Source: Arenicella chitinivorans
GTDB lineage: Bacteria > Pseudomonadota > Gammaproteobacteria > Arenicellales > Arenicellaceae
Length of the DNA stretch: 64,000 nucleotides
Direction: 5' to 3'
NCBI RefSeq assembly: GCF_014651515.1
Contig: NZ_BMXA01000001.1
Span: forward strand, 930,001-994,000
Part shown: piece by piece, positions 10,922 to 60,252 of the stretch
Numbering within the stretch: position 1 is the first letter of the stretch
How the letters are laid out: the number at the start of each line of letters is the position of its first letter
Program-made: the position numbers and the translations under genes
Notes under the pieces: model-generated
Database searches by the model: none
What the model saw: only the letters and a program-made list of their open reading frames with translations
Told to the model about the DNA's origin: nothing

Positions 10922-11016
10922 AACCTAGCAGCGCTGGCCAGATTAAAAAAGCGCAATAAAATCAGTCATTAACCGTTAATGATGGCTGCGCAACTCCTCC
11001 GACTGTCCGCGTGATA

Positions 11017-11061
11017 GCCCGCTTAGCCAGATTAACTTCAATTCGATTCAGCTAAACGGGC
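11017..11061. repeat. Inverted repeat in the gap after the SMP-30-like gene
   Basis: Arms GCCCGCTTAGC and GCTAAACGGGC pair over 11 positions with one G-T wobble around a loop of about 23 bases. A shorter palindrome, CATTAAC/GTTAATG, lies near 10968-10983. No T-run follows, so this is not a typical terminator. Nothing else was recognised between 10922 and 11189. Confidence 0.4.
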
Positions 11062-11189
11062 CTTAATAATTGACGAATGTCTCGTTACAGAAAGGTCAGG
11101 CAAGCTCACGTCCCAAATTCGCGACGTACACTCGTTCTCACTGTCGTTCTTGGCAGTCGACCCTACTAACTAAGTAATGCGAGGTAAGT

Positions 11190-11474
11190 ATGAACACCAC
11201 AATCCCACTGAAACGCCATCTAGCCACAGCAGCGCTGGCCGCCATAACACTTATTGGAGCCCATGCTGCTTCCGCAGGTGCGCCGAATACCGAAGATCGA
11301 CGCTATGTCGATCCACGTACAGGCGAGGTAAAGCACGCCGCCAAGTTGTTATCTGAGATGACCGATGCAGAGCGTTCGGCATTAAGTAACGAGGAATATA
11401 AAGTGCTGAAAGACTTGGAAGAAAACCTCAAACGTCAAAACGAAGTTGATATTGACGCCGTTGGGGATGAGTGA
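11190..11474 (+). CDS. Small exported protein of unknown function
   Basis: A 94-residue protein with an apparent signal peptide (LATAALAAITLIGAHAASAG, cleavage near residue 30). The short, charged mature part includes DPRTGEVKHAAKLLSEMTDAERSALSNEEY. The mature segment is largely helical and acidic. I do not recognise a family. The ATG follows GCGAGGTAAGT. Two hairpins follow at 11500-11582. Confidence 0.65.
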   Translation: MNTTIPLKRHLATAALAAITLIGAHAASAGAPNTEDRRYVDPRTGEVKHAAKLLSEMTDAERSALSNEEYKVLKDLEENLKRQNEVDIDAVGDE

Positions 11475-11499
11475 CAAAAAAGGTCAATGCCCTAGTAGG

Positions 11500-11582
11500 C
11501 CGGTTGGCCCGATTATAGGGTAGGTGGTCAACCGGAGATTGTCGCACCAGCGCACGCTTGACCCGCGTGTTTCTGGTGCGAC
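11500..11582. repeat. Two consecutive hairpins between a small exported protein gene and the AbiEi-like gene
   Basis: The first hairpin pairs CCGGTTG (11500-11506) with CAACCGG (11529-11535). The second has a perfect 10-bp outer stem, GTCGCACCAG (11541-11550) with CTGGTGCGAC (11573-11582), and an inner CACGC/GCGTG stem around TTGACCC. Neither is followed by a T-run. They could be a structured leader, an operator or a REP-like element; the sequence does not decide. Confidence 0.55.
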
Positions 11583-11647
11583 TTTCGCTATCCAGAGATG
11601 GACATTATTTAACTAAGTTGATGTTCGAGTCCTGTTATATCTACGCC

Positions 11648-12661
11648 ATGAACACGCGTACTATCACCGTCAAGGCACTCAATCAATTGCAATTTCATAC
11701 TGGCTTGGTTGCACAGGTCAGTCAAACCGATGCGTCTGTTGGCGGTGCCTTAATTCAATTCGATAATTCCAATGCTCGCTTGCTAGCTGAACTGCGCGAA
11801 TGGGCGACCTCAGGTGGAACTCGAAATCTGATTCAGGAATTGAGCCAGGAGACTCGCTCCGGTTACGATAAGTTGTTGATTTGTGATTATATTTCCGATG
11901 AGGAAGGCGCACGGTTACGTGCCGCAAATGTTAACTATCTAGACAACGTCGGTAACGCCTATCTTGATATTCCACCGATCTATGTGCTGATTCAAGGTAA
12001 GAAGCCTAAAGAGCGATTCGATGCCGATCGAGGCAGTAAACTCTTTACTGAAACCGGACTCAAAGTCATTCTTGCGCTACTGGCCGATGGCAATCTCTTG
12101 AATGCCAGTTATCGTAGTATTGCAGACCATGCCAGTGTGTCCATGGGGACCATTGGTTGGGTTCTGCGCGAATTGAAAAACCAGGGATTTATCCGGTCGC
12201 ATGGTAATCAGTATCGTTGGCTGGATCGCGAATTGTTGCTGAGAAAATGGGTCGATGCGTTTCCTGACCTAAAACAGAAACATCTGTTGGGCAGTTATTA
12301 TTGTCGGCACGCTGATTGGTGGAAGTCGATTGATTTGGGGCGCTATGAGGCAGTGTTGGGCGGTGAATTAGCGTTAGCTGGCGCGTTCCCTGGTTTTCAG
12401 CCGGCCAGTGGCGAAATATACGTGGGTAGATTTAAGCGTGACAAACTTGTGCGTGAACTCAAGCTGAGTGACGTTGCCAGTGCCAAGTCGGCGCAGTGCG
12501 TCCGAGTGGATGTATACAGTCGTTTCTGGGGCCAGATGAGCGACACGAATTTGTTTAGCCAGTATGCGCACCCATTAATCAATTACGCCAGCTTGATGGA
12601 AACCTGGGATCCGGACGTGCGTAAACTGGCAACCGAGTTAGTGAGCGACTATCTGACTTGA
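11648..12661 (+). CDS. AbiEi-like transcriptional regulator (type IV antitoxin family), no toxin neighbour
   Basis: A 337-residue protein. The N-terminal half includes YDKLLICDYISDEEGARLRAANVNYLDN. A winged helix-turn-helix follows (ETGLKVILALLADGNLLNASYRSIADHASVSMGTIGWVLRELKNQGFI), then a C-terminal domain with LLGSYYCRHADWW and AVLGGELALAG. This arrangement fits the AbiEi_2 family of DNA-binding antitoxins. Normally an AbiEii nucleotidyltransferase toxin is encoded next to it, but here the next gene is thioredoxin. ATG at 11648 suits the conserved start; the frame extends to 11558 through the hairpin region. It may be a domesticated regulator. Confidence 0.75.
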   Translation: MNTRTITVKALNQLQFHTGLVAQVSQTDASVGGALIQFDNSNARLLAELREWATSGGTRNLIQELSQETRSGYDKLLICDYISDEEGARLRAANVNYLDNVGNAYLDIPPIYVLIQGKKPKERFDADRGSKLFTETGLKVILALLADGNLLNASYRSIADHASVSMGTIGWVLRELKNQGFIRSHGNQYRWLDRELLLRKWVDAFPDLKQKHLLGSYYCRHADWWKSIDLGRYEAVLGGELALAGAFPGFQPASGEIYVGRFKRDKLVRELKLSDVASAKSAQCVRVDVYSRFWGQMSDTNLFSQYAHPLINYASLMETWDPDVRKLATELVSDYLT

Positions 12662-12714
12662 TTCGCTCAGTATTTTCGCTAGGCTAAGACTATTTCCACG
12701 AAGCGAGGTTGTGT

Positions 12715-13164
12715 ATGAGTACATTGACTGTAAGTTGCCCGCAATGTTTATCCAGCAACCGAATTCCACAGGCGCGCTTGGCCGATGGTCCAAAATGCGG
12801 CAAGTGCAAAACTCGCTTGTTTATTGGTCGCCCCATGACTCTGACCGCTGCTAATGCCGCAACCGTGTTAAAGCACAATCAATTGCCGCTGCTAGTGGAC
12901 TGCTGGGCACCCTGGTGTGCGCCGTGTCGCAGTTTTGCCAGCGTGTTTGAGCAGGCGGCTGGTCAATATGAGCCGAATCTGCGGTTAGCAAAATTAGACA
13001 CAGAAGCCCATCCGAGTCTGGCAACGCGCTGGCAAATTCGTTCTATTCCAACCTTGATACTGTTTCGTGACGGGCGGGAAGCGGCACGCGTGAGTGGTGC
13101 GCTGTCATCGACGCAATTGCAGCAATGGTTGGCGCAACAGGGCGTTAGGGCGGCAAACCGCTAG
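12715..13164 (+). CDS. trxC: Thioredoxin 2 (TrxC-like) with CAPC active site
   Basis: A 149-residue protein made of an N-terminal zinc ribbon (C8xxC11 in SCPQC, C28xxC31 in KCGKC) and a thioredoxin domain with active site WAPWCAPCRSF (Cys68, Cys71) and cis-Pro in RSIPTLILF. This layout is that of thioredoxin 2, a cytosolic disulfide reductase induced by oxidative stress. The usual CGPC is replaced by CAPC, which should alter redox potential or partner choice. ATG at 12715 follows GAGGT. It is monocistronic and converges on the M14 gene. Confidence 0.9.
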   Translation: MSTLTVSCPQCLSSNRIPQARLADGPKCGKCKTRLFIGRPMTLTAANAATVLKHNQLPLLVDCWAPWCAPCRSFASVFEQAAGQYEPNLRLAKLDTEAHPSLATRWQIRSIPTLILFRDGREAARVSGALSSTQLQQWLAQQGVRAANR

Positions 13165-13198
13165 GTGACGCCGCCAATCTCGCTTCAATCAAACCCGT

Positions 13199-14332
13199 TT
13201 ACAGCGTTGATAACACCGCACTGATCGGAAACAACACGTCTGAGCCGAGTTGTGCGCTGCGTTCAGGCGACCATCCGGTCAATTCATTGGGCAAATCGGC
13301 ATTGTCCTTAAACGGCATTTCAATGGTGAACGACAAGGTCTTAAACTGTTCGCCTAACCAATTCGCTGCGATACGCATATCCGCCTTGCCAGGTTCATCT
13401 TTAGGGTAGCCGTGTGTATCCTGAAAGTCTGGTGATATGGCCATATAGCTTGTTTTAAAGGTCTCTTCCAAGGCTGCGTGACGTGCATCGTATCCAGGGT
13501 TGCCTTCGCATCCGGCGACGAAGTTATAGGGTAATTCTTCATCGCCATGAATATCCAGAAACAGGTCGCCGCCTTCTTTCAGCATTCGCTCTCGGACCCA
13601 GAACACTTCTGGGCTTGTTGCCGTGGATGGCGTCGACCATTCGCGGTTTAAGTTAGCACCAGCTGCGTTGGTTCGCAGGTTACCGCGTGCCGCGCCGTCC
13701 GGGTTCATGTTGGGAACCACAAAAAACGCCGTGGTTTTTAATAGTTTGCTCGCCAGCGGATTGTCTTCATCCAGCAAGGTATGCAGAAAACCCTCGACAA
13801 ACCATTCGGCCATGGTCTCACCAGGATGTTGGCGTGCGATCATCCAAACTTTGTGTGTCGGTTCGGCGGTCGCGGAAATTTTGAGCATACTCATGGCGCG
13901 GCCATCGACCGTTAGCCCCAATGTTTCATTGGTAACACGTGTGTCGCCCTGTGCCCAGGCCAGTAAGTCCAGGTGACGGTCGTGGCTGTAGGGTGCAAAG
14001 TAAGCAAAGTAAACACTGTTTTGTTGCAGTTCATAATCAAAGCTCAGAACGCCGTTCTCGTAGCGGCAAGGTGAGCGGAACCAGGATTGCCGGTCCCATG
14101 AGGTGCAGACGTTGTAATCCGGCCAGCCCCCTTTGTATGAGGATTCTCCGGCATTCGTGATGTGGATCGTGCCCGTTTGCCCAACCGTCCCTTCCAAACG
14201 GAAGTGAAACCATTGTAAAAAATCTGCCGCATTGTCTTTTTTGAGAGCTAGCTGCACATTGCTTGGGTCGGCGCTGTCGAGTACGTCAATGCTGCCTGCG
14301 TCAAACTGAGTGGAAATCTGTATAGAACTCAT
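13199..14332 (-). CDS. M14 family cytosolic-type carboxypeptidase (CCP/AGTPBP1-like)
   Basis: A 377-residue protein. The N-terminal beta domain (FLQWFHFRLEG, SYKGGWPDYNVCTSWDRQSW) is characteristic of the M14D cytosolic carboxypeptidase branch. The peptidase domain has zinc ligands His169/Glu172 (ARQHPGET) and His262 (DIHGDEE), NMNPDGAARGN, NLNREW and the catalytic Glu338 in FTIEMPFK. No signal peptide is seen. Bacterial members are thought to trim C-terminal residues such as glutamates from proteins or peptides; the substrate here is unknown. It is convergent with trxC. Confidence 0.9.
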   Translation of the reverse strand: MSSIQISTQFDAGSIDVLDSADPSNVQLALKKDNAADFLQWFHFRLEGTVGQTGTIHITNAGESSYKGGWPDYNVCTSWDRQSWFRSPCRYENGVLSFDYELQQNSVYFAYFAPYSHDRHLDLLAWAQGDTRVTNETLGLTVDGRAMSMLKISATAEPTHKVWMIARQHPGETMAEWFVEGFLHTLLDEDNPLASKLLKTTAFFVVPNMNPDGAARGNLRTNAAGANLNREWSTPSTATSPEVFWVRERMLKEGGDLFLDIHGDEELPYNFVAGCEGNPGYDARHAALEETFKTSYMAISPDFQDTHGYPKDEPGKADMRIAANWLGEQFKTLSFTIEMPFKDNADLPNELTGWSPERSAQLGSDVLFPISAVLSTL

Positions 14333-14485
14333 AATTAAATCGGTGATGGAAGTGGCGTAGTTCAGAGCGGCTAGTGTATTCGTTTCTCATTGGATTTGCG
14401 AAAATTCTTGCCTAAGTCTACGTTGGTTTTGGTTCGGCGCCGGAGTACACTGACGGGATAACAAAAATTATCCGGAGGATGGCAT

Positions 14486-14896
14486 ATGAGTTTATTAGCA
14501 GTGAATTGGGTTGCTGTTTTGGCAGCGGCGGTCATGGGATTTGTGGTTGGTGGTATCTGGTACGGGCCGATCATGGGTAAGAAATGGATGGGCGCGGTGG
14601 GCCTGAGCGAAGCGCAAATTCGCAGTGGCAATATGGCGGCGATATATGGCGGAGCCCTGGCGTTCAGCTTGCTCGCCTCTTGGACTTTGGCGCATACGTT
14701 TGCCAGTTATGCAGTTAACTTATCCTTTTCAGTCAAAGTATTGACTGCGGTGGGCATCGCAGCCGGGTTTATTCTGCCAGCCATCGGCACGAATTACTTG
14801 TTTTCGCAAAAGAGTAAAACCCTATTTTTTATTGATGCTGGCTACTGGTTACTCTTTTACGCGGCTATGGGAGCAGTGCACGCCGCCTTAACTTAA
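14486..14896 (+). CDS. DUF1761 membrane protein
   Basis: A 136-residue protein with four predicted membrane helices. The family motif VVGGIWYGPIMGKKWM is in the first helix-loop, and the final helix contains FIDAGYWLLFYAAMGAVHA. DUF1761 proteins are of unknown function. The ATG at 14486 is preceded by CCGGAGGATGGCAT, giving a good ribosome site. The alkyltransferase-like gene follows after 20 bases. Confidence 0.87.
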   Translation: MSLLAVNWVAVLAAAVMGFVVGGIWYGPIMGKKWMGAVGLSEAQIRSGNMAAIYGGALAFSLLASWTLAHTFASYAVNLSFSVKVLTAVGIAAGFILPAIGTNYLFSQKSKTLFFIDAGYWLLFYAAMGAVHAALT

Positions 14897-14916
14897 TCGA
14901 CCAGTCTGAGGTCGCC

Positions 14917-15240
14917 GTGTCGGGCTACTATGCCCAGGTTTATGAGGTGGTTCGTGCGGTGCCGTCCGGCAGGGTGGTGACCTATGGACAGGTGGCGCAG
15001 CTGATCGGGCGTCCTAGGCACGCACGGCAGATCGGCTACGCACTATCCGCTTTGCCCGCTGGGCACGATGTGCCTTGGCATCGTGTTGTCAATGCCAAAG
15101 GCGAAGTCAGTCGCAGGGCCGTAGTGGATTACGAAGCGTATCAACGCATGCTCCTCGAGGACGAGGGCATTGAATTCGATTGTGCCGGCAGAATTGAATT
15201 ACAACGTTATCAATGGCTGCCGCCAGTTGACTGCCTGTAA
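14917..15240 (+). CDS. Alkyltransferase-like protein (ATL), MGMT family without catalytic Cys
   Basis: A 107-residue protein of the Ada/Ogt DNA-binding fold: VPSGRVVTYGQVAQLIGRPRHARQIGYAL is the helix-turn-helix part. The active-site motif PCHR of methyltransferases is here PWHR (Trp54). This replacement defines ATL/YbaZ proteins, which bind O6-alkylguanine and pass it to nucleotide excision repair instead of removing the alkyl group. The start is GTG at 14917, giving the conserved short N-terminus. Confidence 0.9.
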   Translation: MSGYYAQVYEVVRAVPSGRVVTYGQVAQLIGRPRHARQIGYALSALPAGHDVPWHRVVNAKGEVSRRAVVDYEAYQRMLLEDEGIEFDCAGRIELQRYQWLPPVDCL

Positions 15241-15402
15241 ATTGAATGCGCATGCAGTGTATTCGCAAAAACACCAAACTTTACGCGACCAATTCGTGAA
15301 TACCGGCATCTTAGATAGGATCGTCAGCAATTTGGCGAGGATGCAGCCTTGTCAATCGTCTGAATTATTGAACACGTTTAACCACCACACTTGAGAAATT
15401 TC

Positions 15403-17493
15403 ATGAGACAAATAATCACCGGTGCCCTGTGTGCGCCCTTATTGTTGCTGGGTGCCTGCAGCGAATCCAATCCTACCCCGTCAGAAGCGATTTCTGCCAT
15501 GTCTGAAACCGTCGATTCTACTGCTGTTGAGACATCGACACTGACTTCTGGTATCAGCCTTGAGAACCTAGATCAAACTGTGCGGCCACAGGACAATTTT
15601 TATCGGTACGTCAATGGAACTTGGCTTAAGAATAACGAGATACCCGCCGATAAAACGTCTATCGGTTCGTTCTATGATCTACGTGATCAAGCCGACGAAG
15701 ACGTTAAAAAACTGATTTCGGAACTGGCGGAAACGCCAGCGCTCGAAGCGGGCAGTGATGAGCAGAAAGTTGCGGATCTTTATCGTTCGTTTATGGACAG
15801 TGCAGCCATTGAAGCTGTCGAAATAGATCCGCTAAAACCAATTTTTGCAAAAATCGACAGTATCCAAACGAAACAGGGTCTGGCGACCTTTTTCGGTGAG
15901 TACGGGTATTTGGGTATAAAGAACCCATTGATAACGTATGTGTCAATCGACGCGAAAGAGTCTTCTCGGTATGCGGCCCATATCTGGCAAAGCGGTTTAG
16001 GGTTACCCGATCAAGACTACTACGTCAATGACGCCGAACGGTTTGTAAAGCTGCGCGCCGGATACCTTACCCATATTGCGAATATGTTTGCTTTAGCTGG
16101 TTTTGACAACGGTGATCAGGCCGCCAAAACCATTATGGATTTGGAGACCCAACTGGCGAAACATCACTGGACCCGGGTGGAAAGCCGAAACAGTGAAAAG
16201 CGTTACAACAAGATCGCTACCGCGGATCTAGCCAACTTGACGGATGCTTTTGACTGGCAGGCATTCCTGACCGCTAAACGCATCGCTGATCAACAAGATA
16301 TCATCATCAATCAACCAAGTTTCATTCAAGGTTTTGGCGAGGTCTTTGCGGCGACTTCAGTGGAAGATTGGAAAACCTATCTAAAATTCCATACGCTTAG
16401 CGCGTTCGCCAGCTACTTACCGTCCGAGATTGATGCTGAAGACTTCGACTTCTTCTCACGGCAGTTGCAAGGACGACAGGAGCAACGTCCACGTTGGAAG
16501 CGCGGCGTGGCGGTCGTGAATAGCAACTTGGGCGAAGTCATTGGCAAGCTATACGTGAGCAAGCACTTTAAACCGGAAGCTAAAGCGCGTATGACGGAGT
16601 TAGTGGAGAATCTGCGCACGGCCTACGGCCACAGTATTGATCAATTGGAGTGGATGACTGACGATACCAAGAAAGCTGCGCATGTGAAATTGGCCGCCTT
16701 CACACCTAAAATTGGTTACCCAGATCGCTGGGAAGATTACTCGGCTTTGACAATTGTGGCCGATGACCTGGTTGGTAATATCATGCGTGCGCGCAAGGTC
16801 AGTGAACAAAAAGAACTTGATAAACTGAGCGGACCGATTCGCAAATGGGAGTGGGGTATGACGCCGCAAACGGTGAATGCCTATTACAGCCCAACTCGTA
16901 ATGAGATTGTGTTTCCAGCGGCAATCCTACAACCACCATTTTTCAATATGTCAGCCGATGATGCGGCCAATTACGGTGGAATCGGTGCTGTCATCGGTCA
17001 CGAGATGGGGCATGGTTTTGACGATCAAGGGAGCAAATACGATGCTGATGGCAACCTGCGAAACTGGTGGACGGAGACCGACCTCGAAGAATTTGGTAAG
17101 CGTGGCGCAAACTTAATTGAGCAATACGCCGGGTATGAGGTCTTTGAAGGCGTTAATGTTAATGGCGAACTGACCTTGGGTGAAAATATTGGTGATTTAT
17201 CCGGTGTGACCATTGCCTATAAAGCCTATAAAGCGTCTTTGAACGGTGAAGAAGCTCCGGTAATCGATGGGTTAACGGGTGATCAACGATTCTTTATGGG
17301 TTTTGCGCAAATTTGGCGCTCCAAGATCGTCGAAGAGTCGATGCGCAACCGTATTGTGACGGACCCGCATTCGCCTGGTGAGTTTCGTGCGCTTGGTTCT
17401 TTGTCGAACATGGATGAGTTCTACGCCGCCTTTGATGTGAAGAAGGGCGATGCAATGTATCTGCCGCCGGAAAAGCGTGTCAAAATCTGGTAA
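15403..17493 (+). CDS. M13 family metallopeptidase, lipoprotein (neprilysin/PepO-like)
   Basis: A 696-residue zinc endopeptidase. The signal peptide ends in lipobox LLGAC (Cys19), so it is an anchored lipoprotein, probably periplasmic or outer membrane. The peptidase core has HEMGH (His533 and His537) in GHEMGHGFDDQG and the third ligand motif GENIGDLSG; the earlier VNAYYSPTRNEIVFPAAIL is also diagnostic. The family cleaves oligopeptides. ATG at 15403 is preferred; a TTG at 15391 adds four residues. It is followed by a strong terminator. Confidence 0.93.
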   Translation: MRQIITGALCAPLLLLGACSESNPTPSEAISAMSETVDSTAVETSTLTSGISLENLDQTVRPQDNFYRYVNGTWLKNNEIPADKTSIGSFYDLRDQADEDVKKLISELAETPALEAGSDEQKVADLYRSFMDSAAIEAVEIDPLKPIFAKIDSIQTKQGLATFFGEYGYLGIKNPLITYVSIDAKESSRYAAHIWQSGLGLPDQDYYVNDAERFVKLRAGYLTHIANMFALAGFDNGDQAAKTIMDLETQLAKHHWTRVESRNSEKRYNKIATADLANLTDAFDWQAFLTAKRIADQQDIIINQPSFIQGFGEVFAATSVEDWKTYLKFHTLSAFASYLPSEIDAEDFDFFSRQLQGRQEQRPRWKRGVAVVNSNLGEVIGKLYVSKHFKPEAKARMTELVENLRTAYGHSIDQLEWMTDDTKKAAHVKLAAFTPKIGYPDRWEDYSALTIVADDLVGNIMRARKVSEQKELDKLSGPIRKWEWGMTPQTVNAYYSPTRNEIVFPAAILQPPFFNMSADDAANYGGIGAVIGHEMGHGFDDQGSKYDADGNLRNWWTETDLEEFGKRGANLIEQYAGYEVFEGVNVNGELTLGENIGDLSGVTIAYKAYKASLNGEEAPVIDGLTGDQRFFMGFAQIWRSKIVEESMRNRIVTDPHSPGEFRALGSLSNMDEFYAAFDVKKGDAMYLPPEKRVKIW

Positions 17494-17510
17494 TTGTTAC
17501 CCAGATAGAT

Positions 17511-17541
17511 AAAAAAGCCACCCAGATCGGGTGGCTTTTTT
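17511..17541 (+). terminator. Rho-independent terminator after the M13 peptidase gene
   Basis: Stem AAAGCCACCC / GGGTGGCTTT with loop AGATC, flanked by A-run and T-run, so it can act in both directions. It ends the M13 peptidase transcript. Confidence 0.9.
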
Positions 17542-17653
17542 GTTACTGTTCGACGGTGTTGTTTGATTTACACTGGCCGTGACTGTCATGTCATTGCAAT
17601 GCATTTGGGTTAGGTTACTTTTAGGCACTTTGTGTAGTGCGGAATGACCGTGG

Positions 17654-17677
17654 TTTACTACCTATTTGCCTAGTAAA
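17654..17677. promoter_or_regulatory. Palindromic operator candidate upstream of alkaline phosphatase
   Basis: Perfect inverted repeat TTTACTA (17654-17660) and TAGTAAA (17671-17677) with a 10-base spacer, just before a possible -10 element TATGCT (17683-17688). A single CTGTCAT lies at about 17584, which matches only one half of a Pho box. The dyad is what is seen; the regulator is unknown. Confidence 0.4.
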
Positions 17678-17747
17678 TCGGCTATGCTCTTAGCGCATTA
17701 GAACGCGTTTGACTTTAACGCTTAATCTTTACGTTTTATTTAACACC

Positions 17748-18887
17748 ATGATGATCAAAAAATTCTTTACCTTTTCTCTGGCTTTGTCGCTTTCCGCCTG
17801 CGGATCGGACTCCGCTAAACAATCGCAACTCCCTTCGGATGTCGCGCCAGGTACCACTCAAAACATCATCCTGATGGTCGGCGATGGCATGGGATTAACT
17901 CAAATATCAGCCGCCATCGAAGAGCATAGCCGTAAGCTCGAGATGGAGCGTTTTCAGGTGGTTGGTCTGAGTAAGACACGCAGTGCCAAAGAGCAAATTA
18001 CTGATTCAGCGGCGGGTGCTACCGCTTTCTCGACCGGCGTTAAAACGTACAATGGTGCTATTGGTGTCGACCAGCACGGACGTGCACGTGAAACGATCCT
18101 GGAATTACTGGGAAATAAGGGCTATGCCACCGGCTTGATTGCAACCTCGGTCATCACACACGCAACGCCAGCAAGCTTTTACGCGCATGAAGACAGCCGT
18201 CAGAACTACTACCAAATTGCTGCGGATATGAAGAAAGCGCCGTTAGATTTGTTTATCGGAGGTGGTCGTAAGCACTTTGAGAATCGGACTGATCCGAATA
18301 ACGGAAAAACAGATGATCGGAACCTGATCGAGGAAATGCAAACTTCAGGCTTCAGTTTCGTGAATAGTTTGGCCGAGTTACGCAAAGCCAAAGGCAAGGT
18401 TGGGTATTTTCTCGCTGACGGTCATCCCGATCCGATTTTGAAGGGGCGCGGCGATATTCTTCCGCGTTCGATTCCAACCGCAATTTCACATTTACGTTCA
18501 CGCACCGAGCGAGGCTTCTTTTTAATGGTAGAAGGTTCGCAAATAGACTGGGGCGGTCATGAGAATAAGATTGATTACGTGATCTCGGAACTGATTGACT
18601 TTGACGAAGCGGTCGGTAAGGCCTTGGATTACGCCGAAGCAAATGGAAACACGTTGGTAATCGTAACCGCGGACCATGAAACTGGTGGTTTGACGCTGGC
18701 TGGCGAACCCGGTGAAGACGGTAAAACATCCTACACGAAAGCTGGGCGTCAATTTGCCAGTCACGGCCATACGTCGGCAATGGTACCGGTATTCGCTTAC
18801 GGCCCTGGGTCGGAGTTGTTTGCAGGTGTGTACGACAACAACGAAATTCACGCAAAAATGATGCAAGCTTTGGCGTTAGACAAATAA
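17748..18887 (+). CDS. Alkaline phosphatase, PhoA family, predicted lipoprotein
   Basis: A 379-residue phosphomonoesterase. The signal ends in lipobox LSACG (Cys18). Catalytic features are metal-binding Asp46 in MVGDGMGLTQ, nucleophile Ser87 in TDSAAGATAFSTG, EGSQIDWGGHEN and the metal ligands in TADHETGGLTL and HGHTSAMVPVFAYGPG. It releases phosphate from organic esters outside the cytoplasm. ATG at 17748 begins MMIKKFF; the frame extends further upstream without support. A palindrome lies 70 bases upstream. Confidence 0.94.
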   Translation: MMIKKFFTFSLALSLSACGSDSAKQSQLPSDVAPGTTQNIILMVGDGMGLTQISAAIEEHSRKLEMERFQVVGLSKTRSAKEQITDSAAGATAFSTGVKTYNGAIGVDQHGRARETILELLGNKGYATGLIATSVITHATPASFYAHEDSRQNYYQIAADMKKAPLDLFIGGGRKHFENRTDPNNGKTDDRNLIEEMQTSGFSFVNSLAELRKAKGKVGYFLADGHPDPILKGRGDILPRSIPTAISHLRSRTERGFFLMVEGSQIDWGGHENKIDYVISELIDFDEAVGKALDYAEANGNTLVIVTADHETGGLTLAGEPGEDGKTSYTKAGRQFASHGHTSAMVPVFAYGPGSELFAGVYDNNEIHAKMMQALALDK

Positions 18888-24770: not shown

Positions 24771-25773
24771 CTGGATTTGGCCCTGGGCATTTGTGTTACT
24801 GCCCCTGCCGCTGTTGATGCGCGTTGCGCTTCCTCCAAGCGATAGTGCGGCCGGCGCGCTTCGCGTACCATTCTATGGACTGGTCGGCTCGCTCACTGCA
24901 CCGACAGGGCAACCGAGGCCTGTGGTGCGTGGTGCGCTGCTCTGGTTGCTCTGGAGCGCGCTTGTGGTGGCAGTCGCGCGACCGGTACTTTACGGTGAGC
25001 CAATCCAATTAGCGCAGGATCGACGCGACTTGATGCTGGCGGTGGATATTTCGGAATCGATGCGCGAAGCCGATATGTTGTTTGATCAACAATATGTGCA
25101 ACGCATTGACGCGGTAAAGTACGTGGTAGGGGACTTTGTCCAACAACGCGTCGGTGATCGACTAGGCTTGATTCTGTTTGGTGAGCAGGCCTATTTACAA
25201 ACGCCATTGACCCATGATCGGAATACCGTGGCCCAGCAATTGTACGAGGCGCAGCCCGGGTTTGCGGGCGGCGCGACGGCGATCGGTGACGCCATTGGCT
25301 TGGCGGTTAAGCGCCTACGGGACCGTCCGGCCGAGAGCCGGGTGTTGATCTTGCTAACTGACGGCGCAAATACCGCTGGGACAGATCCCATGGCGGGGGC
25401 AGCGGTGGCGAGAGAAGCGGGTATTCGCATTCATACCATCGGCGTAGGCGCAGAGATGCGGCTGGTACGCGGTGCATTCGGTGGTCAGCGGATGGTGCCG
25501 GTTGGCAATGAGTTGGATGAAGACACGCTGACTGCCATCGCACAACAAACTGGCGGCAGTTTTTTTCGTGCTCGCAATCCAGCGGAACTGAATACGATTT
25601 ACGAAAAATTGGATGCGCTGGAACCAATCCCTGAAGAACAGACGTTTCGACCGCAAATCAGTTTGACGCACTGGATTTTGCTAGTGGCACTGGTGTTGTC
25701 TGCATTGTTGTTTATTAGCTATCAATGGCCATTCCGAGGTGTGTTACGCGAGGTAGTCGGCGATGCTGAGTGA
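24763..25773 (+). CDS. vWA domain membrane protein, BatA-like
   Basis: A 336-residue protein with N-terminal membrane segments, a von Willebrand A domain with MIDAS DxSxS (Asp95, Ser97, Ser99 in AVDISESMREADM), the second MIDAS Thr region (FAGGATAIGDAIG) and LLTDGANTAG, and a C-terminal membrane helix (HWILLVALVLSALLFIS). BatA proteins belong to the aerotolerance operon and work with MoxR in the envelope. ATG 24763 is preferred over 24742 because GAGG precedes it. It overlaps both neighbours. Confidence 0.9.
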   Translation: MLSWIWPWAFVLLPLPLLMRVALPPSDSAAGALRVPFYGLVGSLTAPTGQPRPVVRGALLWLLWSALVVAVARPVLYGEPIQLAQDRRDLMLAVDISESMREADMLFDQQYVQRIDAVKYVVGDFVQQRVGDRLGLILFGEQAYLQTPLTHDRNTVAQQLYEAQPGFAGGATAIGDAIGLAVKRLRDRPAESRVLILLTDGANTAGTDPMAGAAVAREAGIRIHTIGVGAEMRLVRGAFGGQRMVPVGNELDEDTLTAIAQQTGGSFFRARNPAELNTIYEKLDALEPIPEEQTFRPQISLTHWILLVALVLSALLFISYQWPFRGVLREVVGDAE

Positions 25774-27670
25774 TTTTCATTTTATCCGTCCAGAATGGTT
25801 GATGCTGAGTTTGCCGGTAATTATGGCTTACTGGTATGCAGGTCGACGCTCGCAACAAAGTCGTTGGCAACGGTATTTGCCGCCGATGGTGGTTAAGGCG
25901 CTGATGGTTACTGAAGCGAGCGTGTTGCCGGTGTGGTTTTCGCGTGCAGCTGGGTTTACCGGAGTACTGTTGGTGCTAGCTGCGGCGGGGCCAACGTTCA
26001 GTAAGCAAGCGGTGCCAACAATCGAGAATACGCAAGCCACCGTACTAATTCTTGATCTGTCGCCCTCCATGCTGGCGGAAGATCTGCTACCCAATCGTCT
26101 GGCGCGTGCGAGATTTAAAATCATTGATTTTTTACGCGCCCGAGTGGACGGGCAAACCGCCTTGGTGGCCTACGCCGGTGAGGCACACACGGTCAGCCCA
26201 CTCACCGACGACCCGGCGACAATACAAGCGTTGTTACCCGCATTGGAGCCGAGCTTAATGCCGGTATCAGGTAGCAATGTGGAGGCAGCGGTCCAGCTTG
26301 CGGTTCGTCTTTTGAAAGATGCTGGTCGCGTTGACGGCGACCTAGTGCTAATCACGGATGGCGTGGCCGAGTCTGCTGCAAAAACCATTCGCGATACCCT
26401 CGGTTCTCGATTCAGCTTATCGATACTCGGTGTAAGTGGTTCAGCGCCCGCACCGATACCACGCCCACAAGGTGGGTTTGTACAGGGCGCGAATGGCGAA
26501 ATCGTTTTGACTTCGATCGATGCCGGCTTCCTGCGGCAGCTGGCTAAGCAACATGGTGGTCAATTTCAGCGCATCACGGCTGACGACAAAGACATTAATA
26601 GCTTGGTGCGCGCCAGCTTGGCTGAACAACCGGACGCCGAAGCCACTGAGCGGGCTGTAGAATGGCATCAGTGGCAGGATCTTGGTCATTGGTTGGTGTT
26701 ATTGATTTTGCCGATCGTCTTATACTGTTTTCGACGCGGTTTGATTTACCTGTTGCCACTGATCCTGTGGATACAACCGGGAACCGTGCGTGCGGAGAAT
26801 GCCATTAGTTGGTGGAAAAATGCCGATCAGCGTGCTGCAGACGCGTATACGCGTTCCGATTACGCGATGGCGGCTGATATGTTCCAACGCTCAGACTGGG
26901 CTGCGATCGCTGAATACCGCGCCGGGAATTATGACAAAGCGGCTGAGCAGTTTGCCGGGTTGGCGTCTCAATTGGGAGTAGAGGCAATTTATAACCAGGC
27001 AAATGCACTGGCACTTAACGGCGACTATACGGCGGCATTGGAGGCCTACCAACGTGTGCTTGAAGCCGATCCTGAGCACGATGACGCGAAACATAATAAG
27101 CAAGTGATTGAGGAGCTGCTCGACCAACAAAGTCAGGACCAACAAAGTCAGGACCAACAAAGTCAGGACCAGCAAAGTCAGGACCAACAGAGTCAAGACC
27201 AACAGAGTCAAGACCAACAGAATCAAGACCAACAGAGTCAAGACCAACAGAGTCAAGACCAACAGAGTCAAGACCAACAGAGTCAAGACCAACAGAGTCA
27301 AGACCAACAGAGTCAAGACCAACAGAGTCAAGACCAACAGAGTCAAGACCAACAAGCCCAGGACCAACAAGCCCAGGACCAACAAGCCCAGGACCAACAA
27401 GCCCAGGACCAACAAGCCCAGGACCAACAAGCCCAGGACCAACAAGCCCAGGACCAACAAGCCCAGGACCAACAAGCCCAGGACCAATCAGTCGACTTAT
27501 CGAAACAGCCCACGGTGGAAAACCCGCTGAGCGAAAACAGTGAGCAATGGTTGCGCAGTATTCAGGACGACCCAAGTGGACTGCTGCGCCGCAAATTTCA
27601 ATACCAATCTCAATTACGTGCGCGCCAGCAACCGGATCGCCAACCAAAGAATAATGAACAGCGCTATTAA
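25763..27670 (+). CDS. vWA-TPR protein (BatB/BatC fusion type) with long DQQSQ/DQQAQ repeat
   Basis: A 635-residue protein. Membrane segments flank a vWA domain with MIDAS Asp98-Ser100-Ser102 (LDLSPSMLAEDLL) and LITDGVAESA; a second membrane region lies about residues 311-345. TPR-like units follow (DAYTRSDYAMAADMFQRSDW, IYNQANALALNGDYTAALEAY), then residues 454-573, which consist of 24 copies of DQQ[S/N/A]Q. The tail is charged. Vwa-TPR fusions with a Gln-rich linker are usual here, but this one is exceptionally long and regular. The start ATG overlaps the previous stop, and the end overlaps batD by 17 bases. Confidence 0.9.
   Translation: MLSDFHFIRPEWLMLSLPVIMAYWYAGRRSQQSRWQRYLPPMVVKALMVTEASVLPVWFSRAAGFTGVLLVLAAAGPTFSKQAVPTIENTQATVLILDLSPSMLAEDLLPNRLARARFKIIDFLRARVDGQTALVAYAGEAHTVSPLTDDPATIQALLPALEPSLMPVSGSNVEAAVQLAVRLLKDAGRVDGDLVLITDGVAESAAKTIRDTLGSRFSLSILGVSGSAPAPIPRPQGGFVQGANGEIVLTSIDAGFLRQLAKQHGGQFQRITADDKDINSLVRASLAEQPDAEATERAVEWHQWQDLGHWLVLLILPIVLYCFRRGLIYLLPLILWIQPGTVRAENAISWWKNADQRAADAYTRSDYAMAADMFQRSDWAAIAEYRAGNYDKAAEQFAGLASQLGVEAIYNQANALALNGDYTAALEAYQRVLEADPEHDDAKHNKQVIEELLDQQSQDQQSQDQQSQDQQSQDQQSQDQQSQDQQNQDQQSQDQQSQDQQSQDQQSQDQQSQDQQSQDQQSQDQQSQDQQAQDQQAQDQQAQDQQAQDQQAQDQQAQDQQAQDQQAQDQQAQDQSVDLSKQPTVENPLSENSEQWLRSIQDDPSGLLRRKFQYQSQLRARQQPDRQPKNNEQRY
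27122..27481 (+). repeat. 24 x 15-bp in-frame tandem repeat in the vWA-TPR gene
   Basis: The unit GACCAACAAAGTCAG encodes DQQSQ. There are three internally uniform blocks: units 1-4 (mostly CAA-AGT-CAG), units 5-15 (CAG-AGT-CAA, with one Asn variant at unit 7) and units 16-24 (CAA-GCC-CAG, Ala). The near-perfect DNA identity within each block shows recent expansion by slippage or unequal recombination. Because the unit is a multiple of three, copy-number change leaves the frame intact. Confidence 0.97.
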
Positions 27671-53097: not shown

Positions 53098-53912
53098 GAT
53101 TCACACCGTTGATTACGATGTTGTTCGCACTGAGTTGCGAGGCACGGCCTTGGATAGACGCCCTTAAGCTCAACAAAGTACCGGTGCGTCCATACGACCT
53201 TTACACGAAGGATAATATTGAGGTGGTTATAACCGGTATCGGCAGTGAGTCGATGGCCACCGCGATTGGTTGGGTAGCGGGGCGCAACCCAGGTCCGAGA
53301 GTGTGGCTCAATGTTGGTACAGCAGGTCACGCAACGCGAGAATTAGGTGAGCTTCTACTGGTGCATGGTTGTGCCGCGTCGGAGAAAGGCCGGGCTCACT
53401 ACCCGCCGCTGGTGGCGGCCTGGGATGGGGCGACTGATGCTGTATTGTGTGTCGATCATGTGTCGGATCACTATCCAGGTGGCGCGGCTGTGGACATGGA
53501 GTCGATGGCTTTTTTCAACGCCGCACTGCGTTTCAGCGACAGTGAGCTTGTGCAGTCGATCAAAGTGGTGTCTGACAATGAGCGTACTGGCGTTGAACAC
53601 TTGAATCCAAAACGTATCACTGAGCTAATGCAGCCGCACGTGACTGCGGTGATGCACTTCGCATATAACCTTTTGTCCCTGATGCCTAACGCGTTTTCAG
53701 TGCCACAGGTGCTGCATATCGAATCTTTGCGAGCGAGTCACAGTGTCAAGCAGCAAATCCAGCGAGCGCTGCATCAACTTACCGTCTTGGGTATGGCGTC
53801 GGATTGCATTTCTGAGGCTGTGCGAGAACAGGCCTCAGCACGTGATGTGTTGACGGCTTTGCAAAAAATGGTCGACGACAGAGTACCTACTCTGGAGGTC
53901 GCCGATGGTTGA
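53094..53912 (+). CDS. Nucleoside phosphorylase-like protein (PF01048 type)
   Basis: A 272-residue protein. The first 165 residues fit the PNP/MTAN fold: LFALSCEARPWIDAL, ITGIGSESMATAIGW, LNVGTAGHA (phosphate/nucleoside loop), AVDMESMAFFNAA (the conserved VDMES that contacts ribose) and KVVSDNERTG with the catalytic-type Asp. A helical C-terminal extension of about 90 residues is added. It would cleave a nucleoside or a modified nucleoside. It overlaps GT2 (4 bases) and the SPL gene (8 bases), suggesting a shared pathway. Substrate is unknown. Confidence 0.8.
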   Translation: MRFTPLITMLFALSCEARPWIDALKLNKVPVRPYDLYTKDNIEVVITGIGSESMATAIGWVAGRNPGPRVWLNVGTAGHATRELGELLLVHGCAASEKGRAHYPPLVAAWDGATDAVLCVDHVSDHYPGGAAVDMESMAFFNAALRFSDSELVQSIKVVSDNERTGVEHLNPKRITELMQPHVTAVMHFAYNLLSLMPNAFSVPQVLHIESLRASHSVKQQIQRALHQLTVLGMASDCISEAVREQASARDVLTALQKMVDDRVPTLEVADG

Positions 53913-54927
53913 TACGCTGTATATCGAACACGCAGTGCTGGATTTGGACACTACCGCGGCGGTTGTGTCTCGGTACCCTAAAGCGCGTCAGATTGTGATT
54001 GAACGGTATGGTGAGGTGTTCAATTCACACGCGCAAAATTTTCGCACACAGAAGCACAATCCATCGCTGATTCTGGCTGAAAAGAAAAATGCCAAGGTGA
54101 TGCCAGCGCCTGATCAATACGAAACAGGCGGCGGTGCGCATTATTATTTCTCGCATATGTTGAACTGCGTGTACGACTGTCGATACTGTTTTTTGCAGGG
54201 TATGTTGCGCTCAGCAAACTATCTTTTATTCGTTAACTATCAAGAATTTATCGATGAAATTAGAAGTGTGGCTGAACGTCATATTGATGATGAAAAGCCG
54301 GTTTGGTTTTTCTCTGGCTACGATTGCGACAGTCTGGCCTATGAACCGGTAACCCGCTTCGCAGAAACGTTTGTTCCTGCGTTTGCGGGTATCCCCAATG
54401 CGGTACTAGAGTTGCGTACCAAAAGTACGCAAGTGCGCAGCTTGTTAGCGCGCGAACCAATCGACAACGTCGTGGTGGCGTATAGTTTGAGCCCTGAACC
54501 CATCGCAGCCGAGCTGGAGCTGGGTGCGCCGCCGTTGGTAAAGCGGTTAGACGCGTTAAAGAAATTACAGGATCATGGTTGGCGGATCGGCATTCGTTTC
54601 GACCCAGTGATATGGCATGCGGATTATGCCGAAACCTATGCGCAGGCGATTCAATCCGTGTTCGCCGTACTTGACCCCGAGCAAATAGACAGCGTGACAT
54701 TAGGCGGTTTCCGTTTGCCTAAAGGATTTTACAAGACAATGCTGAAGTTGTATCCCGAGCATTGGCTGTTTAACGCTGGGCTCAGTGAGCAAGCCGGTTT
54801 AGTATCGTATAAACCCATATTGGAACGTCAGGTGCTCGATACGGTCGCAAACTTATGTCGCGCATTTATTGCCGCCGATAAATTATTTGTGTATTACGCC
54901 GATGAAGCACAACAAACTAAAGCCTGA
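53905..54927 (+). CDS. Spore photoproduct lyase-like radical SAM protein
   Basis: A 340-residue radical SAM enzyme. Cluster cysteines C88xxxC92xxC95 are in LNCVYDCRYCFLQGML, the SPL-family spacing. A further Cys141 in SGYDCDSLAYEPVT sits where spore photoproduct lyase keeps its hydrogen-donor cysteine, by my alignment from memory. VELRTKST-like and RFDPVI segments are present. Known SPL repairs the spore thymine dimer, but this organism shows no sign of sporulation, so its substrate may be another pyrimidine adduct or a nucleoside. It overlaps genes on both sides. Confidence 0.85.
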   Translation: MVDTLYIEHAVLDLDTTAAVVSRYPKARQIVIERYGEVFNSHAQNFRTQKHNPSLILAEKKNAKVMPAPDQYETGGGAHYYFSHMLNCVYDCRYCFLQGMLRSANYLLFVNYQEFIDEIRSVAERHIDDEKPVWFFSGYDCDSLAYEPVTRFAETFVPAFAGIPNAVLELRTKSTQVRSLLAREPIDNVVVAYSLSPEPIAAELELGAPPLVKRLDALKKLQDHGWRIGIRFDPVIWHADYAETYAQAIQSVFAVLDPEQIDSVTLGGFRLPKGFYKTMLKLYPEHWLFNAGLSEQAGLVSYKPILERQVLDTVANLCRAFIAADKLFVYYADEAQQTKA

Positions 54928-57141: not shown

Positions 57142-57221
57142 AACAAGGTGAGAACACAACCAAAAATTTGATTATTAGTCATGCTGTTCTCAAGCTCAAG
57201 TATATTCGCTATGATCGCGGC

Positions 57222-58139
57222 GTGATCATCGTAACCTCTATCTCGCCACGAACGCGGGCGCTGCAACCGACTGCCTATACGTTGGCAGGCCAAACAGTGG
57301 TGTTTGATCAGGCGGTCACAGCTTTGAGCGAGTATGCATCTCCGGCGTACGTGCCAAAGCAGTCTGAGTATCCGGCGCTACAGCCTGAGCTCGCTGCTAC
57401 CGTAGACGAAGTATATCGAGGTCCGGCGCCGATTGATGGTCGATTGCGTGAGGTCACCGTTTGGCAGACCGCCGTCGGCGTGCAGATTGATGTCGATGCG
57501 CAGCCTGTCTGTCAGCTCGACATCGACCAGGCAGCGATACATTTACTGTGTTCAGACGGTTTGGGTTCACGTGTTAATCTCGAGGTGATCACTGGACCGG
57601 CTCTGATTTTGTTGCTGCAACGGCGAAGTATTTATTGTTTGCATGCTGGTGCGGTGCACAGCAGGGCAGGCGTTATTGCTATGGTGGCAGAGTCAGGCGC
57701 GGGGAAATCTACCTTGAGTGCTCATGACGCAGAAGACTGGCGGCAGGTAAGCGATGATTTACTGCCGGTCAGACTGTCGGGGGACGGTGACTCCAGCGAA
57801 GTCAGTTTGTTACCGGACTACCCTCAGCTCAAATTGCCGAATGCGCGTGTGGCTTGGCTGCCTTCTCAAGCGTTTGCTTTAGACTATCTGGTTAGAATTA
57901 ATCCTCAACCCGCGGAGGTGTTCGAGTGTCGTCGTTTGCCGCTGCAAAGCGCAATGTTACAGTTAATTCGCCATACTGTGGCCGCCAAATTATTCGACGC
58001 GAGCAGTCTGGCGGCGCATGCTGAATTCGCCAAGCGGTTTTGTCAATGTGTGCCGGCTTTTGAGATTGCTTACCCCAGAGCGTTGGATCAGCTGCCTGAT
58101 CTTAGGCAGCAACTCGTGGACGCGTTGCTCACGACGTAA
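57222..58139 (+). CDS. HprK-related P-loop kinase, part of a PqqD-type triad
   Basis: About 305 residues from the GTG at 57222 (a TTG at 57168 would add 18). A weakly conserved N-terminal half precedes an HPr kinase-like core: CLHAGAVHSRAG, the P-loop AESGAGKST (residues 156-164) and VSDDLLPV with two Asp residues, as in HprK-related kinase A proteins. No HPr protein is encoded nearby. It converges on, and overlaps by 11 bases, a nucleotidyltransferase gene followed by PqqD. From memory, this trio recurs in proteobacteria as an HPr-rel-A-type system of unknown product. Confidence 0.75.
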   Translation: MIIVTSISPRTRALQPTAYTLAGQTVVFDQAVTALSEYASPAYVPKQSEYPALQPELAATVDEVYRGPAPIDGRLREVTVWQTAVGVQIDVDAQPVCQLDIDQAAIHLLCSDGLGSRVNLEVITGPALILLLQRRSIYCLHAGAVHSRAGVIAMVAESGAGKSTLSAHDAEDWRQVSDDLLPVRLSGDGDSSEVSLLPDYPQLKLPNARVAWLPSQAFALDYLVRINPQPAEVFECRRLPLQSAMLQLIRHTVAAKLFDASSLAAHAEFAKRFCQCVPAFEIAYPRALDQLPDLRQQLVDALLTT

Positions 58140-59247
58140 CGCGCTTCAATCCACGCCAGAGGCGTTTAAGATAGCCTAAGGTCGCCGACGAAGTTTGCAT
58201 TTGCGTGCGAACGTAAGATGGTGAGGGTAAAAACGTCTCGCGCAATAACCCCATTCTTTGCCGCAGACTTGGCATGCATCGCAGGTCAGTGAGAAAGTAA
58301 CGCCATTCAGGGAGGTCGCGCCGAGTAAATACAGCGCTAGGTTCCTCAGCAGCGCCAGAGAGCGAGTCGAGCACCGTGTTCGGTAGCTGGGTTCCTAATA
58401 ACCCGGCGCAGGCTTGCAGTGCGTCTAGCGTGACAGCGCAGAGTGATTTTTGGCGTGCCTTATTGATTAGAGTTTCCCAATCATATTGGTCGAGTGTGGC
58501 ACTCAATAAATGGATGTCATACAGCCAGGCAAGGCGTTCTTCCCGTGCGTGGTGCCCCAGTCTGTGCAGACAGGCGATCAGTAAACTGTCGACGTTGCTG
58601 GGTGCTGCCAAGTGCGCATCAATAGTCTGACGCTCCGGCCATAAATCTTCCACGGTATAAGCCTGGCTAAGGCATTGTCGATTGTTGATTCGCCAGTGCA
58701 GGTCGATGTGAATCTGACTCTGGCCAGGCAGCGACTTGCTGTAGAGTGATTGATACGAGACGTAACGACCTTCAATCGCAAAGTGCTTTGCAAAGCCTTG
58801 CTCGGTGAGAATTTGGTGCGCAAGCGCGCGTGCGTCGGGATTGATCAGACAATCCGCATCAGAGCGAGGGCGGTACCAGGGCTGTGGATACACCGTATGC
58901 GCTAGGGCTGTGCCTTTAAATAAAATGATGTTGCCCAAACCTGCGGCACGGCAGGCCGAAAAGAGGTTTCGCAATTCCTGTTGTTTAAGTGTTTCGGTCG
59001 CAGCTAGCATGGCACGCCGTTGCTGACAGGCGGTTGCCAAATCCACGCTCAATGTGCTCTTCGCATCTGCCAGTAGAGTGATGCCATGGTAATCGAGGCG
59101 TTCAAGTTTGGCTTGTGGCGAACGGCGTCGCCAGTCAGCGGCAAATTCCGCTGAGTGGTTCGATTTAATCGCGGAATAATCACAGATTAAGCTGGCCAGA
59201 TACTGCAGCTCAACTTGTGTATCTTGCTTGGTGCGCGAATTATCCAT
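58129..59247 (-). CDS. Nucleotidyltransferase family protein (NTP_transf_5 type)
   Basis: A 372-residue protein. LFKGTALAHTVYPQPWYRPRSDADCLI fits the Uncharacterised nucleotidyltransferase family: GT after KG, then a DxD (SDADCLI). A second metal residue may lie in IHIDLHWRI, followed by LHRLGHHAREERLAWLYDIHLL. Such proteins sit beside PqqD and HprK-like genes in RiPP-like loci. The start overlaps the PqqD stop by 8 bases, so both are co-translated. Target unknown: peptide, protein or small molecule. Confidence 0.82.
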   Translation of the reverse strand: MDNSRTKQDTQVELQYLASLICDYSAIKSNHSAEFAADWRRRSPQAKLERLDYHGITLLADAKSTLSVDLATACQQRRAMLAATETLKQQELRNLFSACRAAGLGNIILFKGTALAHTVYPQPWYRPRSDADCLINPDARALAHQILTEQGFAKHFAIEGRYVSYQSLYSKSLPGQSQIHIDLHWRINNRQCLSQAYTVEDLWPERQTIDAHLAAPSNVDSLLIACLHRLGHHAREERLAWLYDIHLLSATLDQYDWETLINKARQKSLCAVTLDALQACAGLLGTQLPNTVLDSLSGAAEEPSAVFTRRDLPEWRYFLTDLRCMPSLRQRMGLLRETFLPSPSYVRTQMQTSSATLGYLKRLWRGLKRVTS

Positions 59248-59515
59248 CGTCCTTGGAACGTTCTACAATCAGCGCATTGGCGAGCAGATCTGTGCGTAAC
59301 TCTGCCAAATCGGTCGACACGAGCGCGAGGGTTTGCTCATATTCATCGGCAATCTGGCGGACACTGTCCGCGTCGCTCGTTCCGCTGTTGAGGAGGGATA
59401 GGTAGCGTGCGCCAACGGCGTTGAGACCATAGTAGCTGCCCGATGAAACATCCAGTAGTACGGCCTCGTCATCAAGTTCGGTAAGTAAGATATTGTCGCC
59501 TAATCGGTAGTGCAT
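59240..59515 (-). CDS. PqqD family protein (RiPP recognition element)
   Basis: A 91-residue small winged-helix protein: LLTELDDEAVLLDVSSGSYYGLNAVG is the diagnostic PqqD pattern (strands then a GxYYxLN turn), and SDADSVRQIADEYEQTLALV forms the helices. PqqD domains bind the leader of a precursor peptide and hand it to a modifying enzyme. No radical SAM or cyclase partner is adjacent, and no precursor was found. ATG 59515 is preferred over a TTG at 59530. Confidence 0.85.
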   Translation of the reverse strand: MHYRLGDNILLTELDDEAVLLDVSSGSYYGLNAVGARYLSLLNSGTSDADSVRQIADEYEQTLALVSTDLAELRTDLLANALIVERSKDDG

Positions 59516-59588
59516 GGGAATAATTATCAAATTCAGTGAAAGCCAACGCGCTAAGGGCTTATTTTAAGGGGTTTTTACCGTGCTTGCT

Positions 59589-59617
59589 TTGCAGTTTTGC
59601 ATTGATTCCGATAGAAT
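59589..59617 (+). promoter_or_regulatory. Sigma-70 promoter of the rpsF operon
   Basis: TTGCAG (59589-59594), 17-base spacer, TAGAAT (59612-59617). It points toward rpsF with an expected start near 59624. Confidence 0.7.
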
Positions 59618-59623
59618 CGCGCT

Positions 59624-59787
59624 TCGCTGCAATCTGGGCAAACCCTTTTGTGGTGAGAAAACGAGGATATTTGCTGGCGACGTTGTTGTCTGTGATAGAA
59701 AAGATATCCACTCTCCTTGTTTCACTGGCTCAGGTTCAACTCGAGTTGAGCACATACCAGGAAACTTTTTAACCGTGAGGAGCTCAA
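59624..59787 (+). promoter_or_regulatory. Long 5' leader of rpsF, possible S6:S18 autoregulatory element
   Basis: About 160 bases from the predicted start to rpsF, with a palindrome CAACTCGAGTTG (about 59736-59747) and AACCGTGAGGAG just before the ATG. S6:S18 complexes repress their own operon by binding a leader hairpin with a CCG bulge in many bacteria. The length and the CCG near the ribosome site fit loosely; the structure was not folded. Confidence 0.35.
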
Positions 59788-60252
59788 ATGAGACATTACG
59801 AAATCGTGTATCTGGTTCATCCAGATCAAAGCGAGCAGGTCACCGCAATGGCCGATCGCTACAAAGGCGTTATTGAGCAGGGCGGTGGCACCGTTCATCG
59901 CTACGAAGACTGGGGTCGCCGCCAGTTAGCTTATCCGATCAACAAGATCCATAAAGCACACTACATTTTGATGAACGTTGAGGTTTCTCAAGAAACCCTA
60001 GCGGAAATCGAGAATCTTTTCCGTTTTAACGACGCAATCATCCGCAGCTTGGTGCTGAAGATGAAAGACGCAGAAACTGAACCATCTGTGATGATGAAAG
60101 AAGTTGAAGCTGAACGTCAACGTGACGAAGAGCGTGAGGCCGCGCGTGTTGCTGCCGCAGAGGAAGCTGCTGCAGAAGAAGCCGCTAAAGCGAAAGCAGA
60201 ATCAGACAAAGCGGAAGAAAGCGCTGAGTCGACAGAAACTGAGGAGGCATAA
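59788..60252 (+). CDS. rpsF: 30S ribosomal protein S6
   Basis: A 154-residue S6: [39 protein letters not shown] and [18 protein letters not shown] are standard. A long Glu/Ala-rich tail (about residues 110-154, including [20 protein letters not shown]) exceeds the usual length. In E. coli, S6 is a substrate of glutamate addition at its C-terminus. GAGGAG precedes the ATG. First gene of the S6-S18-L9 operon. Confidence 0.98.

Follow-up and report, generated by a model that had tools for sequence, protein, structure and literature searches.

A three-gene set in Arenicella chitinivorans, encoding a PqqD-family protein, an NTP_transf_5 protein and an HprK-like kinase, very probably represents the B1, N and K components of a lasso-peptide pathway, forming its shared, trans-acting part while the other pathway genes are scattered over the genome. 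The set lies within a 64,000-nucleotide stretch of DNA (the window), and the genome that the window comes from is designated G000, with C1, C2 and C7 among its contigs and the triad on C1. The case is built from sequence, and draws on genes, families, catalytic residues, precursors, co-occurrence, synteny and a contiguous counterpart in related bacteria.

The triad occupies positions 57222-59515 of the window. The PqqD-family gene, which is proposed to encode the leader-binding RRE (lasso-peptide B1), lies on the minus strand at 59240-59515, with an ATG start at 59515 and a PF05402 match of 37.6 bits (cut-off 23.4). It overlaps by 8 nt with the NTP_transf_5 gene (58129-59247, minus strand; PF14907, 117.3 bits, cut-off 31.2), a candidate for the PsmN-like tailoring enzyme N. 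The gene for the HprK-like protein, the putative tailoring kinase K, runs along the plus strand at 57222-58139 from a GTG start at 57222 (or TTG at 57168), and meets the NTP_transf_5 gene tail to tail in an 11-nt overlap. Reading of the open reading frames, the Pfam matches and the two overlaps thus confirmed the compact unit with overlapping ends that had been described in an earlier, sequence-only reading, but the kinase, being convergent to the other two genes, does not share one operon with them. By sequence, the NTP_transf_5 protein had no PDB relative at E <= 1, while the kinase profile matched mostly generic P-loops and reached HPr kinase itself only at E 0.07; single-sequence AlphaFold2 models of the two proteins were of poor confidence (mean pLDDT 37 and 35, respectively).

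Beyond the PqqD gene lies rpsF (59788-60252, plus strand), a landmark gene and not a pathway member, which in a second family of the order also adjoins a lasso cluster whose genes are contiguous; we take the genes on this side to be rpsF-rpsR-rplI-dnaB-alr-radA. Past the kinase are DUF4442, Gfo/Idh and SDR genes and, at 53905-54927, a member of the spore-photoproduct-lyase family of radical SAM genes (PF20903, 60 bits; general Radical_SAM model under cut-off), so the earlier statement that no radical SAM enzyme is nearby was mistaken. This gene stays on the kinase side across the genus, yet has no evident tie to the pathway, and was rejected as a candidate maturase. It belongs to a block of GT2, nucleosidase-like, SPL and SDR genes that adjoins the kinase across the genus. 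The accompanying statement that no precursor is nearby held: the precursor profile gave two matches genome-wide, neither within the window, and a 78-aa open reading frame at 59536-59772, considered as a precursor, showed no lasso match.

The window PqqD appears closest to lasso-peptide B1 proteins. Its best NCBIfam match was lasso_PqqD NF033530, at 43.8 bits (under the cut-off of 70), a second lasso-specific PqqD exception model reached 33 bits (cut-off 80), and against the PDB at E <= 0.1 only TbiB1 (2.9e-10) and TfuB1 (8.2e-6) were matched. Further parts of such a pathway were identified elsewhere in G000. A single PF13471 match over cut-off, at C2:177477, also passes lasso_biosyn_B2 NF033537 (60 bits, cut-off 33), and the gene for this lone B2 protease adjoins gspC. 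Three strong asparagine-synthetase proteins were present: the one at C1:507597 is a generic Asn synthetase (428.7 bits to asn_synth, cut-off 267.1), the one at C2:733783 is best matched by the lasso cyclase model, at 268 bits against a cut-off of 525, and the one at C1:38669 is weakly lasso-like (74.8 bits against the same cut-off of 525, with 76.8 bits to the generic Asn synthase model). The latter two each adjoin a small open reading frame with a lasso leader pattern, a location that favours their being cyclases, and on C2 the start of the precursor overlaps the stop of the putative cyclase. As scans with the leader pattern yield many chance matches, such matches were used only where backed by the profile, an NCBIfam model or a neighbouring cyclase. 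Both precursors exceed the lasso_leader_L3 cut-off of 19 (25.5 and 19.8 bits) and have the lasso form, with the leader motif, Thr at -2, Gly1 of the core and Asp/Glu at 7-9, and a precursor profile of 17 rows, two of them from the genus, finds exactly these two in G000.

The genes are therefore distributed over four loci in G000, with the triad at C1:987-989 kb, B2 at C2:177 kb and the precursor-cyclase pairs at C2:733-735 kb and C1:38-40 kb, so that the C1 pair shares the contig of the triad at a distance of ~0.95 Mb and the C2 pair does not. Lasso genes usually, if not by strict definition, form one cluster, which is not the case here. With cyclases, protease and precursors at other loci, the triad fits a lasso-peptide set. 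The genome-wide search for small peptides that the sequence-only reading had proposed thus returned two precursors in G000, each beside an Asn-synthetase-type protein, and its idea of a RiPP-type peptide-binding protein and tailoring enzymes with a substrate encoded elsewhere proved right; its likening of the triad to the HPr-rel-A type did not survive, and a lasso set does without a radical SAM maturase. Near the second precursor-cyclase pair, at 10707-18162 of locus L090 (C1 near 41-48 kb), lie two further genes, one for a protein of 962 aa that has a nidogen-like match and one for a peptidase C25 protein of 1215 aa; both are also kept in G006 (L143).

HPr-rel-A systems combine the same three families, PqqD, NTP_transf_5 and HprK-like. 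That the triad is such a cassette, with a substrate that has nothing to do with lasso peptides, would agree with this identity of families and with the weak match of the kinase to TIGR04352, but the match of the window kinase to that model (HprK_rel_A) is 21.5 bits against a cut-off of 200 and that of the window PqqD to PqqD_rel_X (TIGR04353) 16.9 bits against 35. In addition, the window kinase is convergent, the window PqqD matches lasso B1 structures, and lasso precursors and cyclases are present. A nearer match is offered by a second triad in G000, an NTP_transf_5 - PqqD - HprK-like set in co-directional order (L009 8291-10565, corresponding to C7:117.3-119.6 kb), which reaches 100.9 bits to TIGR04352 and 26.3 bits to PqqD_rel_X, both likewise under cut-off; its flanking genes are presumably mutY and trmB. 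We therefore consider an HPr-rel-A cassette very improbable for the window triad.

The presence of two PqqDs in G000 also raises the question of whether it is the C7 PqqD that serves the orphan precursor-cyclase pairs as B1, with the window triad having another job. The C7 protein is much less like a lasso B1, matching a PqqD-family chain in the PDB at E 0.003 and TfuB1 at E 0.043, and four congeners, G003 (95% complete), G009 (78%), G011 (87%) and G015 (99%), have a single PF05402 protein, a single NTP_transf_5 protein and a single precursor. Since that PqqD is of the window type, it is the only B1 candidate found in these genomes, and G015 has one match each for PqqD, NTP_transf_5, kinase, B2 and precursor. 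A partnership with the C7 PqqD in place of the window one thus seems quite unlikely, while the C7 triad could share work with the window triad.

The lasso assignment of the window triad is matched by its distribution. PqqD, NTP_transf_5 and kinase occur at the triad locus in all 18 genomes of the genus (G000 included), although only 40 residues of the G010 kinase are present before its 5,401-base contig ends, and the PqqD of G016 is likewise cut by a contig end. B2 was found in 17/18, being absent from G016 (81% complete), and a precursor in 16/18, each adjoining a PF00733 match (the putative cyclase); the 15 congener loci of the C2 type all share a PFK-like neighbour with the C2 locus of G000. 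No precursor and no second Asn synthetase were found in G013 (98% complete) and G001 (88%), though the triad and B2 are kept there; G001 had no PF00733 match at 1e-12 and G013 one, in the generic range. Both also have no PFK-like gene, so an assembly gap or the loss of a segment is possible. B2 adjoins gspC in 12 of the 18 genomes (G000, G001, G004, G005, G006, G009, G010, G011, G013, G014, G015 and G017), and B2 of G008 stands at a contig end, its other neighbours being the same; it is not beside gspC in G002 and G012, where it adjoins another PqqD, or in G003 and G007, where the context is different. By contig numbers, neither B2 nor a precursor is on the contig of the triad except for the G000 pair 0.95 Mb off, with the caveat that many congener genomes are drafts with several short contigs, such that another contig is not always proof of distance. 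Among the 16 congener triad loci fetched, kinase and NTP_transf_5 genes converge on one contig in 15, more than by chance. The sequence-only reading had regarded a triad broken in relatives as counting against it; such a break is seen in the linkage of one of these 16 loci (G014), where the kinase and NTP_transf_5 genes are on different contigs, with all three genes kept. An IS-mediated break in G014 was considered and rejected, the 144-aa open reading frames near the breakpoints being unrelated to each other.

Over 119 genomes including G000, a precursor and a kinase, each called at E <= 1e-3, occurred together in 30 genomes (every protein matching the window kinase was counted, so other kinase types are among them), a precursor only in one (G036), a kinase only in seven (G001, G013, G024, G034, G039, G080 and G084) and neither in 81 (Fisher 2e-20; outside the genus 3e-12); as related genomes are not independent, these statistics are descriptive.

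In another family of the order, the same genes form one cluster of roughly 17-25 kb at 7/7 loci (G032, G044, G053, G060, G066, G068 and G071). Its order is NTP_transf_5, gspC, B2, PqqD and a first kinase, then precursor a with cyclase a, a surface-type protein of 1600 aa, cyclase b with precursor b, a second kinase and finally a protein of 454-554 aa, followed by rpsF-rpsR-rplI-dnaB. A homology check recovered gspC, NTP_transf_5, B2, PqqD, kinases, cyclases and the rpsF-dnaB genes at all seven loci, with cyclase a of G032 coming from a separate reading outside this check and the G071 cluster spanning two contigs; gspC of the G053 cluster is a T2SSC match. At each of the seven the second-type kinase adjoins a lasso precursor near rpsF-dnaB. 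Here gspC lies towards one end of the cluster and rpsF marks the opposite one, so that the landmarks of the separate fragments in the genus are found in or beside a single cluster in this family. Two further genomes, G039 and G074, have NTP_transf_5, gspC, PqqD and B2 directly beside rpsF, with the precursor, cyclase and kinase of G074 on a different contig. The 1600-aa protein between the two cyclases carries SdrD_B repeats (L062 10473-15350 and relatives).

Since this contiguous cluster occupies the same site in the other family and the genes have diverged, with genus kinases 32-66% identical to that of the window, the triad might be read as a functionless, decaying remnant. Against such decay, the genes are kept in 18/18 genomes, even where rearrangement has split them (G014), and their catalytic residues are invariant in the genus sequences aligned. 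All 23 kinases aligned (15 from the genus) share His141, the Walker A residues including Lys162, and Asp178/Asp179, so that the catalytic set whose completeness had been questioned is, by inspection, whole; in NTP_transf_5, K111-G112, R126, D130 and D132 are invariant in 20 aligned proteins (17 from the genus). Comparison of G000 with G006 gave pN/pS of 0.24-0.29 for the three triad genes, with synonymous sites near saturation; the range was 0.23-0.31 when B2 and the cyclase (C) were included with them, synonymous changes being near saturation for several, and 0.11-0.13 for rpsF and the precursor. We consider a decaying remnant extremely unlikely.

The target of the kinase may differ from that of characterised lasso kinases. 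Reviews describe kinases of the PadeK/ThcoK type as having a His-Lys-Asp-Asp set and acting on the C-terminal Ser, and the nucleotidyltransferase PsmN as putting hexoses on the phosphate (PMC9266682, PMC8498205). All 16 C2-type precursors of the genus have Thr at -2, Gly1, Thr/Ser3, Glu8 and Ser9, and they end in Pro (13), Ala (1), Val (1) or Thr (1); thus, unlike the paeninodin-type peptides (PMC9266682, PMC8498205), the main genus precursors are without the C-terminal Ser (0/16) that those kinases modify. The two C1-type precursors (G000 and G006) both end in Thr and carry Asp8-Pro9. In the other family, the precursor adjoining the second kinase has Glu8-Ser9 in 7/7, whereas the six first-type precursors extracted have Asp8 throughout, Ser9 in 0/6 and a C-terminal Thr in 4/6; as some loci hold both precursor types and are listed in both groups, counts were made by core type. 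Exceptions are L060 (G021), with Asp9-Ser10, and L082 (G074), with Asp8-Ser9 and a C-terminal Ser. The occurrence of Glu8-Ser9 and Thr/Ser3 throughout, with no C-terminal Ser, suggests that the window-type kinase may act on a residue inside the core, although Ser9 could instead be conserved for folding. In a tree of 42 kinases, those of the window and the genus form one group (support 93/98, or 97/96 when G004 is left out). A split with 99/99 support sets this group apart from the first kinase type together with the kinases of Bacillus, of Opitutales and of the sulfotransferase loci; the second type is weakly supported as a group (89/35), and the tree does not place the genus kinases relative to it.

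From these features we infer how the proteins might act together, in what order and on which residue, as well as the sugar and the role of the product. PqqD (B1) would recognise precursors from the other loci by their conserved leader (Y..P.L...GDVRD.T.) and present them; the kinase would phosphorylate a core hydroxyl, and the NTP_transf_5 protein would decorate the phosphate group, most likely by adding a sugar in the manner of PsmN. Removal of the leader, with its Thr at -2, is predicted to fall to B2 from its distant locus, and the linking of Gly1 to Glu8 or Asp8 to the cyclase adjoining each precursor. Extending this, we tentatively propose, as a possibility with rather less than even chances, a genus-wide cluster-free lasso pathway, in which a B1-N-K hub by rpsF and B2 by gspC are shared in trans by separate precursor-cyclase pairs, and a kinase subtype phosphorylates the internal Ser9 (or Thr3) by the ring closure before N transfers a sugar. 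The invariant Glu8-Ser9 without a C-terminal Ser predicts a new phosphorylation site, and, should the hub act in trans, a single set of B1, B2 and kinase would serve precursors at other loci, an arrangement suited to engineering.

On the evidence of gene content and sequence, the scattered gene arrangement and unusual precursor ends are a variation on known lasso pathways. Paeninodin/pseudomycoidin-type clusters comprise the same families (A, C, K, B1, B2 and N), and the window kinase has their catalytic His-Lys-Asp-Asp (H141, K162, D178 and D179; PMC9266682); here, however, the genes lie at three or more separate loci and the kinase groups apart from the Bacillus one. In Bacillus sp. FJAT-14578 (L145), a contiguous C-K-B1-B2-N locus includes the same NTP_transf_5 family, with no precursor found there by the leader-pattern scan. 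In the RRE-Finder study, almost 8,000 proteins had the discrete lasso RRE model as top match and only ~4,000 had both peptidase and cyclase; the remainder were considered potential false positives, and ~300 of these adjoined radical SAM enzymes (PMC7470986). Like such discrete RREs, the window protein is a lasso-type B1 without nearby B2 or cyclase, but here the same genome encodes the partners at other loci, as do genomes across the genus (PMC7470986). Because surveys count lasso pathways by co-located genes, a split pathway with a shared hub would be missed or called a false positive, and, if the cluster-free reading is true, part of the roughly 4,000 partnerless lasso-type RREs would be hubs of split pathways (PMC7470986). 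The arrangement is kept across most of the genus, and cluster-only mining tools could miss such pathways. Among the titles and abstract openings listed in a search of open-access literature, none describes a split lasso locus, and one may be in print elsewhere.

Three further loci of the genus, L071, L072 and L074 (G005, G002 and G007, respectively), contain an Asn synthetase, an HprK-like kinase and a PqqD. Other genes at these loci presumably encode sulfotransferase, aspartyl hydroxylase and phage-tail-collar proteins, and L071 and L072 have in common a small protein of roughly 100 aa. Elsewhere in the window, the protein encoded at 25763-27670, which we take to be of the VWA/TPR type, has a long QDQQS/QDQQA repeat near its C-terminus.
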